Shown here in pieces: positions 1,757-63,689 of a stretch of DNA of 64,000 nucleotides. A program made the position numbers and the translations under genes. The stretch is from Mesoaciditoga lauensis cd-1655R = DSM 25116 (GTDB lineage: Bacteria; Thermotogota; Thermotogae; Mesoaciditogales; Mesoaciditogaceae): positions 1-64,000 of the forward strand of contig NZ_JQJI01000002.1 of the NCBI RefSeq assembly GCF_000745455.1, in the 5' to 3' direction. Within the stretch, counting starts at the first letter, position 1; every line of letters starts with the position of its first letter. The notes under the pieces are model-generated. The model searched no databases. It was not told the DNA's origin and saw nothing but the letters and a program-made list of their open reading frames with translations.

Positions 1757-1914
1757 AAGTAAGATCTCATCTTGTGCATGAACATTACAAAAAATAGGTC
1801 TCTACGGGATTGTATGGGTAACATATTTCGAATAATAGCATCTTTTGACATTTTACTACCGCTTTCCAAGTGGTCAAGGCAATTTTTTCGAAGTCCTGCC
1901 AGAACATATGAGCT
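1757..1914 (-). repeat. Partial copy of the dispersed palindromic element (right-end segment plus half palindrome)
   Basis: Sequence from gtgcatgaacattac through aacatatttcgaataatagc to cgaagtcctgccagaacat is nearly identical to 61650-61826. It falls under the 5' extension of the activator reading frame and explains why that frame stays open although the extension is probably not protein coding. Confidence 0.75.
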
Positions 1915-1917
1915 CTC

Positions 1918-2290
1918 CTCGCCGTTTTATGGATATTCTGCCCCCACATGTGGATGAAGTGGTGGTAAAGCCATTTTTATAGAAGTCTTTCCCCGCGTAT
2001 GGACGAAGGGCCGACGAAACCATTTCTATAAAAAGTCTGCCCCCGCTTGCGGGGGAAGTGTCAGCAAAGCTGACAAAGGGGGGCAATGAACCCTCCTCTC
2101 CAACTTCGTTGGCCATCTCCTCCCGGTTTCGGGAGGAGAATAAAGGAAACTACTTTCCAAATTGAAAAGTTTGCCTCCATTTATGTAGGAAGTGCCGGTG
2201 AAGCCATTTTATATAAGAGTCTGCCCCCGCTTGCGGGGGAAGTGGCGGCAGAGCCGGCGAAGGGGGTTCTCCATATTGTAGGAAGAAGAG
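1918..2290. repeat. Cluster of degenerate GC-rich palindromic units of about 50 bp
   Basis: Successive units begin with tctgccccc or a variant (about 1937, 1983, 2036, 2167, 2220). The best units (2036-2085 and 2220-2268) carry a perfect hairpin cccccgc-TT-gcggggg followed by a second small hairpin and a closing ggggg. The same unit, with the same left flank (cgccattttatggatattc), occurs at 18608-18682. Similar GC-rich palindromes are widespread non-coding repeats in many bacteria. No gene is visible here. Confidence 0.75.
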
Positions 2291-2344
2291 TCACTTCACA
2301 CTCACATTGTGCGTCAATGTTACAAAGCATTTCAAAAAAGGATT

Positions 2345-2662
2345 AAATCTCACCCTCAAAGTACTTGTCAGAACATATGAGCTCGCCATCTGAAGATTCA
2401 CAAATATGAGGTTGAGAGGCACAGGATGTGCCGAGAAAGCGAAGCACTCACGGACGAGTGTCTGAGCGTGCCTCATATTTTGAATTGTAAGATGGAAAGA
2501 AGAGCGAATCCGTTCTGACAAGTGCTTCAAAAAAAATGTCTTGATCACTTGAAAAGCGGTTTTTAAATCAAAATGTTCCATCAAATATGACTCACACTTC
2601 TCATAGAGAATTTTTGTAATGTCTCTTGCAATACATTCCGTAATGTTCACGCACAACATGAG
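2345..2662 (+). repeat. Dispersed palindromic element, subfamily B copy 1
   Basis: Core palindrome 2359-2528: outer arms aagtacttgtcagaac (2359-2374) and gttctgacaagtgctt (2512-2527), inner arms around atgagg/cctcat, and inner hairpins ggcaca-gga-tgtgcc and cactc...gagtg. A tail to 2662 (ctcatagagaatttttgtaatgt ... gcacaacatgag) is shared with the copy at 31.0-31.36 kb. Reading frames across it are not conserved between copies, so it is judged non-coding. Confidence 0.85.
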
Positions 2663-2716
2663 TTACTTCTTAAACTTGCCACACATCAAAAATCAGTTTT
2701 TGATTTTTCAATTTCA

Positions 2717-3423: not shown

Positions 3424-4032
3424 ATGAAGAAAGTTCTGATTCTTATGGTAATTGCGATTTTGGCGTTAGGCGTGATGGCAATAGCAGATCATGTGGGTCC
3501 AACTTGTGATGAAGCAACGCTAACAGTTACATCTAATATTTACGTGCTTTCAGGTTTTGAAGCCACAGCAACAGGATACGAGGCAACGTTCTGTGGAGCT
3601 TCAGGAGATTTAGTAAGTGGCACTGTTTTGAAGGAATCAAGTTCTCAATGGAACCCTACTCCATGGCCAGAAGGCTTTACTCCTAGTTCTAATCCTAATC
3701 TTCCTTATCTTTATTATAAGCGCTATCTAATTCTCGCGGGTCTTGATTTAAAGAGCAACTATGAAAATATAACTGTGAGGGTTACTCACGAAGGATTTTT
3801 TGAGGATCATAGCCTTGGCAACAACATTGATGTGAAGGCTGCTGATGGTTGGTTTTCTAGTGATGGCACTACGTGGCATCTTTCAGCAGATCCAACAACA
3901 AACGGCAGCCCATATTCCGGCGCTCTATATGTATACTACGATGCTTCTGATGGCATAACTCAATGGATTGAAGCTAATAAGTATAGTGAAACGATAAAAT
4001 TTACTGTAACACCAATCAATCCAAATTGGTAA
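3424..4032 (+). CDS. Exported small beta-rich surface protein, paralogue 1
   Basis: The product has 202 residues: a classical signal peptide (MKKVLILMVIAILALGVMAIA, probable cleavage before DHV), then a conserved 40-residue start with VGPTCDEATLTVTSNI and a second cysteine in TFCGASG, a variable middle, and a conserved end (WIEANKYSETIKFTVTP) finishing in tryptophan. The two cysteines could form a disulphide. Two close paralogues (4108, 10851) share signal peptide, N-terminal block and the leader aagggggtatttc-TATG. The pattern resembles a structural subunit (pilin- or coat-like) rather than an enzyme. No database family is recognised; function is inferred from repetition and from the secretin and chaperone-like genes next to it. 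Confidence 0.75.
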   Translation: MKKVLILMVIAILALGVMAIADHVGPTCDEATLTVTSNIYVLSGFEATATGYEATFCGASGDLVSGTVLKESSSQWNPTPWPEGFTPSSNPNLPYLYYKRYLILAGLDLKSNYENITVRVTHEGFFEDHSLGNNIDVKAADGWFSSDGTTWHLSADPTTNGSPYSGALYVYYDASDGITQWIEANKYSETIKFTVTPINPNW

Positions 4033-4051
4033 AAAAAGGTAAAGTAAGAAA

Positions 4052-4087
4052 CTTAACAGCAGCGGCATAAGTGTCGCTGCTGTTAAG
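4052..4087 (+). promoter_or_regulatory. Perfect 13-bp stem hairpin between two subunit genes
   Basis: Arms cttaacagcagcg (4052-4064) and cgctgctgttaag (4075-4087) enclose a 10-nt loop. No T-run follows; instead the ribosome-binding site of the next gene starts 7 nt later. This fits an RNA-stabilising or processing hairpin, or an attenuator, rather than a standard terminator. Confidence 0.7.
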
Positions 4088-4107
4088 GGAAGAAGGGGGT
4101 ATTTCGT

Positions 4108-4743
4108 ATGAAAAAAGTTCTGATTCTTACAGCAATTGCGATTTTGGCGTTAGGTGTGATGGCAATAGCAGCTCATGTGGGCCCAACTTGTGATGAAGCA
4201 ACATTGACAGTTACGTCTAATATAACAGTTGTTCAAGGATTTGAGGCTACTGCAACTGCGCAGGATGCCACTTTTTGCGGGGCGACCGGGAATCCATTGA
4301 GTGAGGTAACAGATTTTCAAACTTCTTTCTGGCACTATAATGGTAGAGATTATTCTGCAACAACATCAGTTTCTTTAAGCGGAGTTAAGTTCCTTGAGCT
4401 TGATGTAAGATCAAATGCAGCTACGATTGTTGTTAAAATCACTGCCAGTAATTTTAAACTTGGTGAAACTTCTCTGTCTTTGGCGCAATTAATTGCTTCC
4501 GGAAATTTGGGTAGTGTAGGTTTTAGCACTTATAACAATTATGGATGGGGTGAAGTTATTGCTCCTTCAGCTTATAATAATAGCATGAGTTATACTATCA
4601 TACTATTCCTTGGGAAAACTTCTCCTAACCCTTATTACAACGGCGCTCTTTATATGTATATCACAAATATGCCAGCATGGTTAGAAGCTGGAAAGTACTC
4701 TTTTGATACCTCATTCACCTTAATGCCTAGGACTAACTACTGA
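4108..4743 (+). CDS. Exported small beta-rich surface protein, paralogue 2
   Basis: The product has 211 residues, with signal peptide MKKVLILTAIAILALGVMAIA, then AHVGPTCDEATLTVTSNI, a second cysteine in TFCGATG, a divergent middle, and the shared end WLEAGKYSFDTSFTLMP finishing in tyrosine. Identity with the gene at 3424 is highest over the first 65 residues and the leader, which points to tandem duplication with fast divergence of the exposed middle part. A 13-bp hairpin separates the two genes. Role as a structural subunit is inference. Confidence 0.75.
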   Translation: MKKVLILTAIAILALGVMAIAAHVGPTCDEATLTVTSNITVVQGFEATATAQDATFCGATGNPLSEVTDFQTSFWHYNGRDYSATTSVSLSGVKFLELDVRSNAATIVVKITASNFKLGETSLSLAQLIASGNLGSVGFSTYNNYGWGEVIAPSAYNNSMSYTIILFLGKTSPNPYYNGALYMYITNMPAWLEAGKYSFDTSFTLMPRTNY

Positions 4744-10850: not shown

Positions 10851-11507
10851 ATGAAGAAAGTTCTGATTCTTACGGTAATTGCGATTTTGGCATTGGGAGT
10901 TATAGCAATAGCGGACAGCGTAGGTCCAACTTGTGAAGAGGCAACACTGACAGTTACATCTAATATTTACGTGCTTCAGGGTTTTGAGGCTACCGCAACG
11001 GGATACGATGCAACGTTCTGTGGAGCAACAGGATATCTTTTAAAGGGACATGAAGCAGTTGATGCAGCACATGGTTCAAGTTTTCCTCAGATAGTATTGT
11101 ATGACGGAGGACCTTATGGACCAGGTAGTGGAATTGGAGACGACGATCTCGTGCTGTCTTCTCTATCGGTCATGTCGAATTACAATAAAGTTAAAATAAC
11201 TATTGATATAAGCGGTGTTCCAAGTGATTTTAGAAACATTCTCAAGATAGCCGTGTCGACCAATGATGATAATGACTGGAGTAATCCATCATATGTTGGT
11301 AATTCGTCGTCGGGAATCCTTACGTTACACGACACTAATGGTGGAAGTCCTTACAAAGGTTTCTTGTTCATTTACACAGTTTATACAGGCACGCCCAAGA
11401 TTTTCAATGGAACAAATCAAGGTTCTAACCAAATAGCACCATGGGTGGAAGCAGGAAAATATTCCATAACGTTTAAATTCACCATTTCACCTGACTTTAC
11501 ATTCTAA
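10851..11507 (+). CDS. Exported small beta-rich surface protein, paralogue 3
   Basis: The product has 218 residues. The leader aaaagggggtatttcg-TATG and signal peptide MKKVLILTVIAILALGVIAIA are almost identical to those of the genes at 3424 and 4108, followed by SVGPTCEEATLTVTSNI, TFCGATG and, after a variable middle, WVEAGKYSITFKFTISP ending in phenylalanine. It stands 170 bp behind the previous gene and 6 kb from its sisters, so it may be transcribed separately. An aromatic last residue is common to all three paralogues. Confidence 0.75.
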   Translation: MKKVLILTVIAILALGVIAIADSVGPTCEEATLTVTSNIYVLQGFEATATGYDATFCGATGYLLKGHEAVDAAHGSSFPQIVLYDGGPYGPGSGIGDDDLVLSSLSVMSNYNKVKITIDISGVPSDFRNILKIAVSTNDDNDWSNPSYVGNSSSGILTLHDTNGGSPYKGFLFIYTVYTGTPKIFNGTNQGSNQIAPWVEAGKYSITFKFTISPDFTF

Positions 11508-18488: not shown

Positions 18489-18607
18489 AATAATTTTCCC
18501 CCCAACATAATAATATTTTAGAAACTAACTCCTTTTGTGCATCGATAAACGTACGTCAAGTTCAAGAAATTAATTGGGAAATAAAGTAAATAGTGAAAAA
18601 TGAACCC

Positions 18608-18682
18608 TCCTCGCCATTTTATGGATATTCTGCCCCCGATTGCGGGGGAAGTGGCAGCTTTGCTGCCGTAGGGGGCTCTCAC
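18608..18682. repeat. GC-rich palindromic unit, second locus
   Basis: tcgccattttatggatattc followed by tgcccccgattgcggggg and a small hairpin ggcagc-ttt-gctgcc, closing with ggggg. Sequence and left flank match the cluster at 1918-2290. Confidence 0.75.
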
Positions 18683-18729: not shown

Positions 18730-18982
18730 CTTTGAAGTTTCTGTCAAAACATATAAAGACTCCATATAAGATGCGAAAGAACAGAGCTTTTCTTCTTCTC
18801 CACCAAACTTCGAAACACTTGTCAGCACTTATGAACTCTCCATCTGAAGACTCATAAAACGAGGTTGAGAAACACATGGATGTGTTGAGAAAGCGAAGCA
18901 CTCACGGATGAGTGTCTGAGCGTGCCTCGTTTTTTGAGTCGTAAGATGGATAAAAGAGTGAATTGTGATGGCAAGCGCTTCA
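18730..18982 (+). repeat. Dispersed palindromic element, subfamily A copy 1 with preceding half-arm
   Basis: The core is 18811-18982, with outer arms cgaaacacttgtcagcac and the diverged gtgatggcaagcgcttca. Inside are aaacgagg/cctcgttt arms and the CGGA-loop hairpin cactcacggatgagtg. A preceding 60-bp half-arm (gaagtttctgtcaaaacat) is shared with the copies at 19.1 and 58.3 kb. Together with the next copy it fills the 835-bp gap between disA and the PIN/TRAM gene; no other feature is seen there. Confidence 0.85.
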
Positions 18983-19019
18983 AGTTAATCATGTTTTTTC
19001 TGTTTTTCTTTTCTCTCTT

Positions 19020-19275
19020 TTTGAAGTTTCTGTCAAAACATATGAAGACGCCATCCAAGATGCGAAATAACAGAGTTTTTTTCTTCTTCTCCGCCAGACT
19101 TCGAAACACTTGCCAGCACTTATGAACTCTCCATCTGGAGACTCATAAAAACGAGGTTGGGAAGCACACGGATGTGTTGAGAAAGCGAAGCACTCACGGA
19201 TGAGTGTCTGAGCGTGCCTCGTTTTTTGAGTCGTAAGATGGATAAAAGAGTGAATTCGTGCTGGTAAGTGTTTCG
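19020..19275 (+). repeat. Dispersed palindromic element, subfamily A copy 2
   Basis: The core 19102-19275 is the clearest copy: outer arms cgaaacacttgccagcac (19102-19119) and gtgctggtaagtgtttcg (19258-19275) match at 17 of 18 positions. The inner arms are 19131-19156 and 19217-19241, and two central hairpins have CGGA loops. The half-arm begins near 19020. It is in the same orientation as copy 1 and in tandem with it. Confidence 0.9.
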
Positions 19276-19323
19276 ATAAATATTTTCAATGATCGCCTTT
19301 CCTTACATTAAACGCCACTTTCT

Positions 19324-30928: not shown

Positions 30929-31356
30929 AATTTGGTTCTCATCAGTTTAGTGTGGATAAAACATGCCGATTCTCTATTCTGTTTGTTGTTGCAGTTCTGA
31001 ACAAAATCATCCTAAAATACCTTGTTATCAAGTAAAAGAACAAGCACCCTCGAAGTACTTGTCAGAACATATGAGCTCCCATCTGGAAATTCAAAATATG
31101 AGGTTGAGAGGCACAGGACGTGCCGAGAAAGCGAAGCACTCATGGACAAGTGTCTGAGCGTGCCTTATATTTTGAATCAGAAGATGGAGAGAAGAGCGAA
31201 TCCGTTCTGACAGGACTTCGAAAAAATTGCCTTGACCGCCTGGAAAGGGGGTAAATCAAAAAGGATTGTATTCCAATGTGTTGCTCACATATTCTCATAG
31301 AGAATTTTTGTAATGTTTCTTGTAATACTTTTCGTAATGTTCACGCACAACATGAG
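30929..31356 (+). repeat. Dispersed palindromic element, subfamily B copy 2, with long left extension
   Basis: The core 31051-31220 has outer arms cgaagtacttgtcagaac (31051-31068) and gttctgacaggacttcg (31204-31220). The left 120 bp (ggttctcatcagtttag to caagcaccctcgaag) recurs in inverted orientation at 61981-62101 with few differences. The right tail to 31356 is shared with the 2.4-kb copy. It fills nearly the whole 570-bp gap between prmA and the chromate transporter. Confidence 0.88.
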
Positions 31357-31456
31357 TGTTTAGATGAAAAAACATTCAAGGAGAAACAAAAAAATCTGAT
31401 AAAGATTGGTTAAATCCTTAAAGACGCACAAAAATCAACGAAATGGAGAGCCGTTG

Positions 31457-40248: not shown

Positions 40249-40430
40249 AAAAGACCCCTCATATGTTTTTTACTTTCTGTCAGAATCAGAATAAACGAAT
40301 TACTCCGCATCAATTAACAGCTCACCTTGTGTGCAAGTGTTAAGTAATTAAAGTACTAACGAAATTTTCACATGCGTCAAGTTTAAGAATCATAAAGCAC
40401 AAAACATCGCTCAATAAATGTTCTTTTTAT
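40249..40430. other. Upstream region of the FapA-like gene, no gene seen
   Basis: AT-rich, with no frame of note and no clear hairpin. It probably holds the promoter of the FapA-like gene, but no convincing -35/-10 pair could be assigned. Confidence 0.4.
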
Positions 40431-40437
40431 ACTTTCT

Positions 40438-40611
40438 CGAAACACGTGCCAGCACTTGTGAACTCTCCAGCTGGAGACTTATAAAAACGAGGTTGGAAAA
40501 CACACGGATGTGTTGAGAAAGCGAAGCACTCACGGATGAGTGTCTGAGCGTGCCTCGTTTTTTGAGTCGTAAGATGGATAAAAGAGTGAATCCGTGCTGG
40601 CAAGTGTTTCG
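40438..40611 (+). repeat. Dispersed palindromic element, subfamily A copy 3
   Basis: Outer arms cgaaacacgtgccagcac (40438-40455) and gtgctggcaagtgtttcg (40594-40611); inner aaaaacgagg and cctcgttttt arms and both CGGA-loop hairpins are retained. It lacks the half-arm found before other A copies. It lies between alaS and the FapA-like gene. Confidence 0.9.
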
Positions 40612-40722
40612 ATAAACATTTTCTTGTGCGTTAAGAGTTAACAAATTAAAGAAATCAGCTCCTCACTTTTTACCGTTTATATTTGCCAAGCACCTTTCCC
40701 CTCAACATTAAATTGAAGAAAA

Positions 40723-58079: not shown

Positions 58080-58267
58080 CCTTATCTACATCAATTATGA
58101 AAATCCATATGGCAGAAAATCTTCATCACCTTTTAAATCACCTAACCCACTCTGTTCGCGATTGTGATAAGCAATTAACATTAACAAAACCCTTAAATCA
58201 GAGGGCAAAATCTTACTCACGTGGATGTTCTAAATATACTATACTTTGTTTTTCCTTTTGCCCCCTT

Positions 58268-58519
58268 GAAGTTTCTATCAAAACGTATGAAGACGCCATA
58301 CAAGATGCGAAATAACAGAGTTTTTTCTTTTTCCTCTTCCCGTTTATCGAAACACTTGCCAGCACTTATGAACTCGCCATCTGAAGACTCTAAAAACGAG
58401 GTTGGGAAACACACGGATGTGTTGAGAAAGCGAAGCACTCACGGACGAGTGTCTGAGCGTGCCTCGTTTTTTGAGTCGTAAGATGGATAAAAGAGTGAAT
58501 CGTGCTGGCAGGTGTTCCG
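58268..58519 (+). repeat. Dispersed palindromic element, subfamily A copy 4 with half-arm
   Basis: The core 58348-58519 has outer arms cgaaacacttgccagcac and gtgctggcaggtgttccg. The half-arm (gaagtttctatcaaaacgt) begins near 58268 as in the 18.7 and 19.0 kb copies. It separates the permease genes from the binding-protein gene of the sugar importer. The remaining DNA from 58080 to 58267 shows no gene. Confidence 0.9.
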
Positions 58520-58591
58520 ATAAATATTTTCAATGATCACCTTTTCCTTTAAAATCCTTACTTTAACGCATATCAAGAATCAATGTCTAAA

Positions 58592-61639: not shown

Positions 61640-62103
61640 CTTTTGTGGTGTTCATGCACAAGATGAGCGATCATTACATCTTGTAACCACCATCTTTGTT
61701 ATTTTTAGAAAAATTCAGCTCTCTGGGAATTTGTGTGGATAACATATTTCGAATAATAGCATCCTTTGACATTTTACCACCGCTTTCCAAGCGATCAATA
61801 TATTTTTTTCGAAGTTCTGTCAGAACGGATTCGCTCTTTTGTCCATCTTACAATTCAAAATACGAGGCACGCTCAGACACTCGTCCGTGAGTGCTTCGCT
61901 TTCTCGGCACGTCCTGTGCCTCTCAACCTCATATTTGTGAATTTCCAGATGGAGAGCTCATATGTTCTGACAAGTACTTCGAGGGTGCTTGTTCTTTTAC
62001 TTGATAACAAGGTATTTTGGAATGATTTTATTCAGAACTACAACAACAGACAGAATAGAGAATCGGCATGTTTTACCCACACTAAACTGATGAGAACCCA
62101 AAA
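61640..62103 (-). repeat. Dispersed palindromic element, subfamily B copy 3 (inverted orientation)
   Basis: The core 61810-61981 has arms cgaagttctgtcagaac and gttctgacaagtacttcg. The part 61981-62101 is the inverted counterpart of 30931-31051; the part 61650-61809 matches 1757-1890 (gttcatgcacaagatgag, aacatatttcgaataatagc). It occupies most of the 575-bp gap between the PAS and mobB genes; nothing else is seen there besides a possible -10 (tataat 62162-62167). Confidence 0.88.
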
Positions 62104-63557: not shown

Positions 63558-63565
63558 ATAAATAG

Positions 63566-63651
63566 AAACGGGGAGCCGGTGGACCGGCTGAGAGGAGGCT
63601 GAAAGCCTCGACCCTTTGAACCTGCTCCGGGTAATGCCGGCGAAGGGAAAA
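63566..63651 (+). ncRNA. TPP (THI-box) riboswitch aptamer
   Basis: Matches the TPP riboswitch core: ctgaga (63588-63593), accctttgaacctg, and gggtaatgccggcgaaggga at its 3' side, with stems ggagccggt/accgg and gaggct/agcctc. It senses thiamine pyrophosphate. It precedes a transcription terminator and a thiamine-binding protein gene, so TPP should switch the operon off. Confidence 0.95.
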
Positions 63652-63656
63652 ATGGG

Positions 63657-63689
63657 CCGTTCCCCGTTTTGTTTGGGAACGGATTTTTT
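63657..63689 (+). terminator. Riboswitch-controlled intrinsic terminator
   Basis: Arms ccgttccc (63657-63664) and gggaacgg (63675-63682) followed by atttttta. The 5' end of the leader, aaacgggga (63566-63574), is complementary to tccccgttt (63661-63669), overlapping the left arm and loop, and so can act as antiterminator when TPP is absent. Confidence 0.88.

Follow-up and report, generated by a model that had tools for sequence, protein, structure and literature searches.

MITE-like elements carrying a TwoAYGGAY-like structured core in Mesoaciditoga lauensis

Introduction

The orphan RNA motif TwoAYGGAY (Rfam RF01731) has been listed from human gut, gamma-Proteobacteria and Clostridiales (PMC2864571). 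Gardner and Eldai proposed that it binds CsrA, on the basis of its paired GGA hairpin loops (PMC4333381). In the literature we found neither a tested function for the motif nor a description of it as mobile cargo. In CsrB, RsmY and RsmZ, GGA likewise lies in hairpin loops, and paired sites suit the CsrA dimer (PMC4333381). Among mobile elements, QMITE1 and QMITE2 of Coxiella are 300-400-bp MITEs with about 50 copies, whose transcripts have long palindromic folds and include some sRNAs (PMC5896051). Correia/NEMIS and pneumococcal BOX elements are present in more than 100 intergenic copies and have stable RNA folds that affect their neighbours (PMC10969869, PMC2229807).

Here we describe a folded core of ~175 nt, dispersed in ~180 copies across the Mesoaciditoga lauensis genome. 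It shares with TwoAYGGAY an adjacent pair of AYGGAY-loop hairpins, a long outer stem and a tandem-GA step (GCGAAG...TCTGAGC), but has much longer outer arms, lies in MITE units in ~180 copies and scores only 28.6 bits against the Rfam model. Its GGA hairpin loops and two sites also recall CsrB, RsmY and RsmZ. Those are single-copy genes of gammaproteobacteria with many GGA hairpins, whereas the M. lauensis cores have two per copy and are dispersed, and their transcription and CsrA binding are putative. QMITE1 and QMITE2 are MITEs of similar size with a palindromic fold, but belong to another organism, and PMC5896051 contains no CsrA link or cross-family protein-binding motif. Correia/NEMIS and BOX elements are known for providing RNase III sites, IHF sites and promoters rather than CsrA-type loops; no sequence relation to the M. 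lauensis cores was noticed. BOX elements are modular, as are the arrays of A and C cores described below.

Results

The 43-nt centre of the core, allowing at most three mismatches, has 182 matches in the M. lauensis genome (2.17 Mb, 65 contigs), 92 on one strand and 90 on the other, and the reversed pattern has none. The stretches around copies, 448 kb in all, contain 159 full cores and many truncated ones. Full cores fall into three subfamilies which differ in sequence but have a common fold: 81 B, 66 A and 12 C. They are intergenic and occur in both orientations. None of the 159 overlaps a gene predicted by a simple dicodon model written for the analysis, confirming that full copies stay outside gene bodies. 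No exact match to the core was found in IMG/VR.

Seven full cores and one partial copy had been noted in the initial annotation of the window (the whole stretch of DNA analysed here, 64 kb). A covariance model of the 72-nt core centre (R2) returns exactly these seven, with E values from 1e-24 to 5e-28 (Table 1). The partial copy near 1757 is also real, and consists of one core arm together with the 3' portion of a T2-type unit. The elements encode no conserved protein, as had been stated: the arms give only spurious ORFs, for example 2291-2659, and a protein-coding role was rejected. A truncated 5' half of C often lies ahead of an A core, the two repeating in tandem as units of ~290 bp, and these arrays are sometimes closed by a full C core. 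The copies at 18811 and 19102 hold up as cores, but their description needs correcting, as they belong to one tandem array, with a truncated C 5' half ahead of each A core. An A-C array is also found ~2 kb from csrA (G000:C64:7444-7832 and C64:5203).

Table 1. Cores, truncated cores and mobile units in the 64-kb window.
Feature	Position	Strand	Remarks
Partial copy: T2-type right end, 3' flank and one B-core arm	1757..1931	-	
T1-type MITE unit with B core	2300..2663	+	TIRs 2300-2323 and 2640-2663; boundaries from unit consensus
B core	2357..2536	+	initially placed at 2359; TwoAYGGAY-like centre 2406-2477
Truncated 5' half of C core, first member of A array	18732..18788	+	
A core	18811..18985	+	TwoAYGGAY-like centre 18859-18931; RF01731 28.6 bits, sub-threshold
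Second truncated 5' half of C core	19021..19075	+	
A core	19102..19278	+	centre 19151-19223
Chimeric unit with one B core	30934..31357	+	T2-type left end 30934-30962; T1-type right end 31334-31357
B core	31051..31224	+	centre 31098-31169
T1-like TIR upstream of A core at 40438	40319..40343	+	diverged; single end placed
A core	40438..40614	+	centre 40487-40559
Truncated 5' half of C core upstream of A core	58266..58320	+	
A core	58348..58522	+	centre 58396-58468
T2-type MITE unit with B core	61717..62098	-	flanks AAAAATTC / CAAAATTC, which look like an 8-bp target duplication
B core	61806..61981	-	initially placed at 61810; centre 61861-61932

The fold common to A, B and C is a long interrupted outer stem followed by two central hairpins. 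Each copy in the window has a folding energy far below that of its shuffles (z -8 to -11). When left unconstrained, the minimum-energy structure of subfamily C departs from this fold in the centre, and the two-hairpin form is less stable there by 3.5 kcal/mol. The 72-nt centre comprises a closing stem, hairpin 1, the purine linker GAGAAAGCGAA and hairpin 2 with its tandem-GA step. In A cores hairpin 1 is AACACA-CGGA-TGTGTT, followed by the linker GAGAAA, and hairpin 2 is GC-GA-AGCACTCA-CGGA-TGAGTG-T-CT-GA-GC, over the tandem-GA step. The step is present in A, B and RF01731 members as GCGAAG...TCTGAGC, with subfamily C departing from it (GCGAATC...ATGCAGC). In the 66 A and 81 B copies, the positions that flank GGA in the loops are either C or T, GGA itself is nearly invariant and the neighbours of the variable positions are almost fixed, giving AYGGAY.

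Pairing was counted in a structure-free MAFFT alignment of 30 copies. In this alignment 94.8% of cells were paired, 19 pairs showed double changes and 142 cells were compensatory. Observed pairing and covariation were equalled by none of 500 shuffles, and sliding the partner columns by 1-3 left 30-41% paired. A second alignment comprised 43 distinct cores and covered two families; it was fitted to the model, and its counts lean towards that model. Double changes were present in 19 of 23 pairs. The covariation score was 0.52, while shuffles gave 0.16 and slid controls no more than 0.08. GGA was found in both hairpin loops of 36 of these 43 cores. Loop sequence has thus persisted through turnover of the stems. 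Covariation, AYGGAY loops and TwoAYGGAY architecture all support the structured repeat first proposed.

RNA-level selection usually produces an excess of G-U over A-C in stems. At the stem pairs of the core, G-U and A-C were counted at 101 vs 105 in A, 82 vs 61 in B and 13 vs 15 across families. As the two are equal, covariation alone cannot separate RNA selection from DNA-level maintenance of the palindrome. The wobble counts do not indicate which strand is selected, nor whether it is RNA or DNA.

The only meaningful Rfam match of the core is TwoAYGGAY (RF01731), at 28.6 bits and in another case 22.6 bits, with an alignment that spans the whole model, including both AYGGAY hairpins and the outer stem. 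The Rfam gathering threshold is 43 bits. It is not reached, and a scan of the class with RF01731 gave no match in the M. lauensis genome at E<=0.001. The core is therefore not filed under RF01731. Other sub-threshold Rfam matches (STnc320, EGFOA-assoc-1 and similar) were dismissed as chance. The class search did find dispersed, multicopy RF01731 matches above the cut-off in another Thermotogota family (f7, genus g10), with as many as 24 in a single closed genome, some of them below the cut-off. The f7 elements have the common linkers GCGAAGC...TCTGAGCG. In the reverse direction, a covariance model built only from the M. lauensis genome (R2) matched nine of ten f7 RF01731 loci at E 1e-14 to 8e-3 and the tenth at 0.12. 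Carriers of R2 matches were 10 of 103 class genomes, namely six Mesoaciditogaceae and four members of f7. Judged from these comparisons, the core is of RF01731 architecture and reciprocally similar to that family.

The palindrome is not the mobile unit but lies inside MITE-like units with TIRs. When flanks were aligned, conservation extended past the core and then stopped sharply, at TIRs of two unrelated types. T1 (~60 units) has a TIR of ~24 bp with a ACTCACATTGTGCGT end; units start ACTCACATTGTGCGTCAATGTTAC, finish with the imperfect inverse GTAATGTTCACGCACAACATGAGT and are ~265-450 bp long, mostly ~364 bp. They are flanked by 5-bp target duplications, with an exact 5-mer match in 32 of 62 units against a shuffled mean of 3.0, often, by eye, in a T-N5-A context. 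T2 (16 units) has a TIR of ~29 bp with a GGTTCTCATCAGTTTAGTGTGG end; units start GGTTCTCATCAGTTTAGTGTGGGTAAAAC, finish ...ATGTTATCCACACAAATTCGNAGAGAAC and are ~381 bp long. Their target duplications are AT-rich and ~8 bp, exact in 6 of 16 units against 0.5 when shuffled. Small size, many copies and cores without a predicted gene are likewise features of MITEs. The size of about 170 bp in the initial annotation applies to the structured core and not to the mobile unit, and the cgaaacac... ends that it assigned to a mobile palindrome find no support, cgaaacacttgccagcac being an internal arm and not a transposon end.

The identical core type was found in both TIR contexts and in a chimera. With its T2 left end and T1 right end, the chimeric unit, together with the T1 and T2 units in the window, indicates that one core is carried by two unrelated TIR systems, between which it may be transferred by recombination within cores. 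No autonomous element was recognised from core-free T1 or T2 ends in the 448 kb around copies. TIR resemblance and the 8-bp duplication length hinted at an ISL3-type enzyme for T2 units, but the ISL3 transposase (PF01610), the sole transposase family searched, had no match in the draft assembly.

Among the named relatives, the carriers of the core are Mesoaciditoga and other Thermotogae MAGs. Copies are patchy, with ~10 in G001 (same genus), 5 in G003, 10 in G004, 49 in G008 and 2 in G006. Four sister-genus genomes have no copy. Units with T1-like ends occur in G001 and G004, and with T2-like ends in G008. Measured between aligned blocks, the spaces of G001 orthologous to those at 18.5-19.3, 30.9-31.5 and 58.0-58.6 kb are 42, 34 and 89 bp long, against ~813, 563 and 582 bp in M. 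lauensis. The 61.6-62.2-kb space measures 607 bp in M. lauensis but 40 bp in G003, where the 18.5-19.3-kb space is 10 bp. These are empty orthologous sites for the insertions at 18.8/19.1, 31.05, 58.3 and 61.8 kb. Copies were thus not at identical positions in all relatives, four spaces of the window being empty in G001 and/or G003. TIRs, target duplications and empty sites agree with the MITE-like character and mobility originally suggested.

Cores of G004, G006 and G008 (L086 1501-1596 region, L113, L101, L103) have an extra hairpin module of ~60 nt (GAGCGAGATTGCAC..TGCAATGTTTTCTCGCTTTTACGACCAAAGCGGTAGCTGCGA) placed between the outer stem and hairpin 1, with stem changes that preserve pairing. 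An Rfam search with this module gave nothing above chance.

We also checked for CsrA in the carriers. The M. lauensis genome has csrA in a fliW-csrA operon, and the protein, read by eye against E. coli CsrA, keeps Leu4 and the Arg44 equivalent. The gene was present in 10 of 11 core carriers, the exception being G008 (87% complete), and in 51 of the 61 class genomes examined. Co-occurrence of core and csrA is thus weak evidence, as csrA is common in the class. The CsrA SELEX consensus is RUACARGGAUGU. Hairpin 1 of the core, ACAGGAUGU or ACACGGAUGU, is close to it, which supports a predicted CsrA site.

Of the units lying between co-directional genes, 49 have the GGA strand antisense to those genes and 15 have it in sense. 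A units account for nearly all of this bias, being antisense to sense at 29:2 (p=5e-7), with B units at 20:13. The ratio in A units indicates that their GGA strand is mostly absent from host mRNAs. This bias may reflect purging of sense copies, with the GGA strand acting in mRNA, or the opposite strand may be the useful one.

Discussion

The elements are very probably MITEs with a TwoAYGGAY-like cargo. The vehicle is ordinary, whilst the cargo is structured, conserved and unexpected. The occurrence of RF01731 architecture on two unrelated MITE types, together with dispersed RF01731 in a second Thermotogota family, suggests how the motif spreads.

We propose that the elements are MITEs, non-autonomous DNA transposons, and fall into two or more kinds, distinguished by TIRs and target-duplication length, which would be mobilised, now or formerly, by transposases supplied in trans. 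Both the T1 and T2 kinds bear a common cargo, the ~175-nt structured module with its 72-nt centre of TwoAYGGAY architecture, most likely active as RNA. Its two adjacent GGA loops would form a paired site for the CsrA dimer, and any transcribed copy could sequester CsrA or come under CsrA control. We infer transcription, CsrA binding and a regulatory effect of the core. The explanation as a whole, MITEs with CsrA-binding RNA as cargo, has in our view about an even chance of being right; CsrA binding as the reason why the cargo is kept is more tentative. A bolder version, rather unlikely as it stands, is that a CsrA-binding TwoAYGGAY-like module was captured by unrelated MITE families, its ~180 copies forming a dispersed sponge or rewiring device, and that the MITEs may exploit CsrA binding to limit their cost or aid their spread. 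No paper linking CsrA-type motifs with MITEs was found in a limited literature search. If CsrA is bound, small transposons would supply a global RNA regulator with binding sites. With carriers that have CsrA and ~180 natural variants, the standing prediction of CsrA binding is directly testable.

The main rival is that the elements are purely selfish MITEs whose palindromic core acts as DNA, through a cruciform or single-strand hairpin that aids transposition, excision or replication, with arms kept perfect by template switching and not by RNA function. We consider this a real possibility, if a somewhat doubtful one. TIRs, target duplications and empty sites are all expected of it, as are intergenic copies in both orientations, and the equal frequency of G-U and A-C mismatches gives no strand-specific sign of RNA pairing. 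However, the best conserved parts of the core are unpaired or non-Watson-Crick (GGA in both loops, the purine linker, the tandem GA), and they recur in the second family with different stems and surroundings. Carriage of one core on two unrelated TIR systems places it outside the recognition of one transposase, and the orientation bias of A units also argues against a role purely as DNA.

It is improbable that the core is a cis-acting RNA (5'-UTR switch, attenuator or terminator) spread and kept to regulate adjacent genes. RF01731 is typed as Cis-reg in Rfam, cores are always intergenic and the 3' flank of B cores has an outward promoter-like TTGACC-16-TAAAAT/TTAAAT, but units in sense upstream of a co-directional gene are the minority (15 vs 49 antisense; 2 vs 29 for A units). 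No common class of downstream gene was noticed, sites are not conserved between relatives and a T-run after the stem is absent on both strands. A palindrome of REP/BIME type, moved by a RAYT (Y1) transposase as the initial annotation suggested checking, shares with these elements intergenic position, palindromic form and high copy number. To our knowledge REP and IS200-type elements have subterminal hairpins and no target duplication; the units described here have long TIRs and target duplications of 5 bp or ~8 bp, and their core is far longer than a REP. We therefore regard this origin as very improbable.

Neighbouring features

A second repeat family, the GC-rich double hairpin CTGCCCCCGCTTGCGGGGGAAGTGTCGGCGAAGCCGACAAAGGGGG, was found at 1983-2082, 2167-2266 and 18600-18660 and upstream of many A arrays. 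These repeats often adjoin or nest with T1 units. The promoter-like sequence in the 3' flank of B cores, for example at 61750-61800 (-), points outward as TTGACC-16-TAAAAT, with a CCGCTTGGAAAGCGG hairpin as its spacer. On this side of B units there tends to be a gene that starts and reads away from the unit.

At the left of the window, the ORF of a sigma-54 activator (271-1869, -), called from a TTG at 1869, runs into a T2 end. Its MSKDAIIRNML.. is encoded by the T2 terminus, and the T2 element may thus supply the start of this gene. A TPP riboswitch (RF00059) lies at 63559-63665 (61.9 bits). The stretches 3424-4743 and 10851-11507, beside secretin-like genes, encode three small paralogues (MKKVLILTVIAILALGVMAIA..) that look secreted and have nearly identical leader regions.
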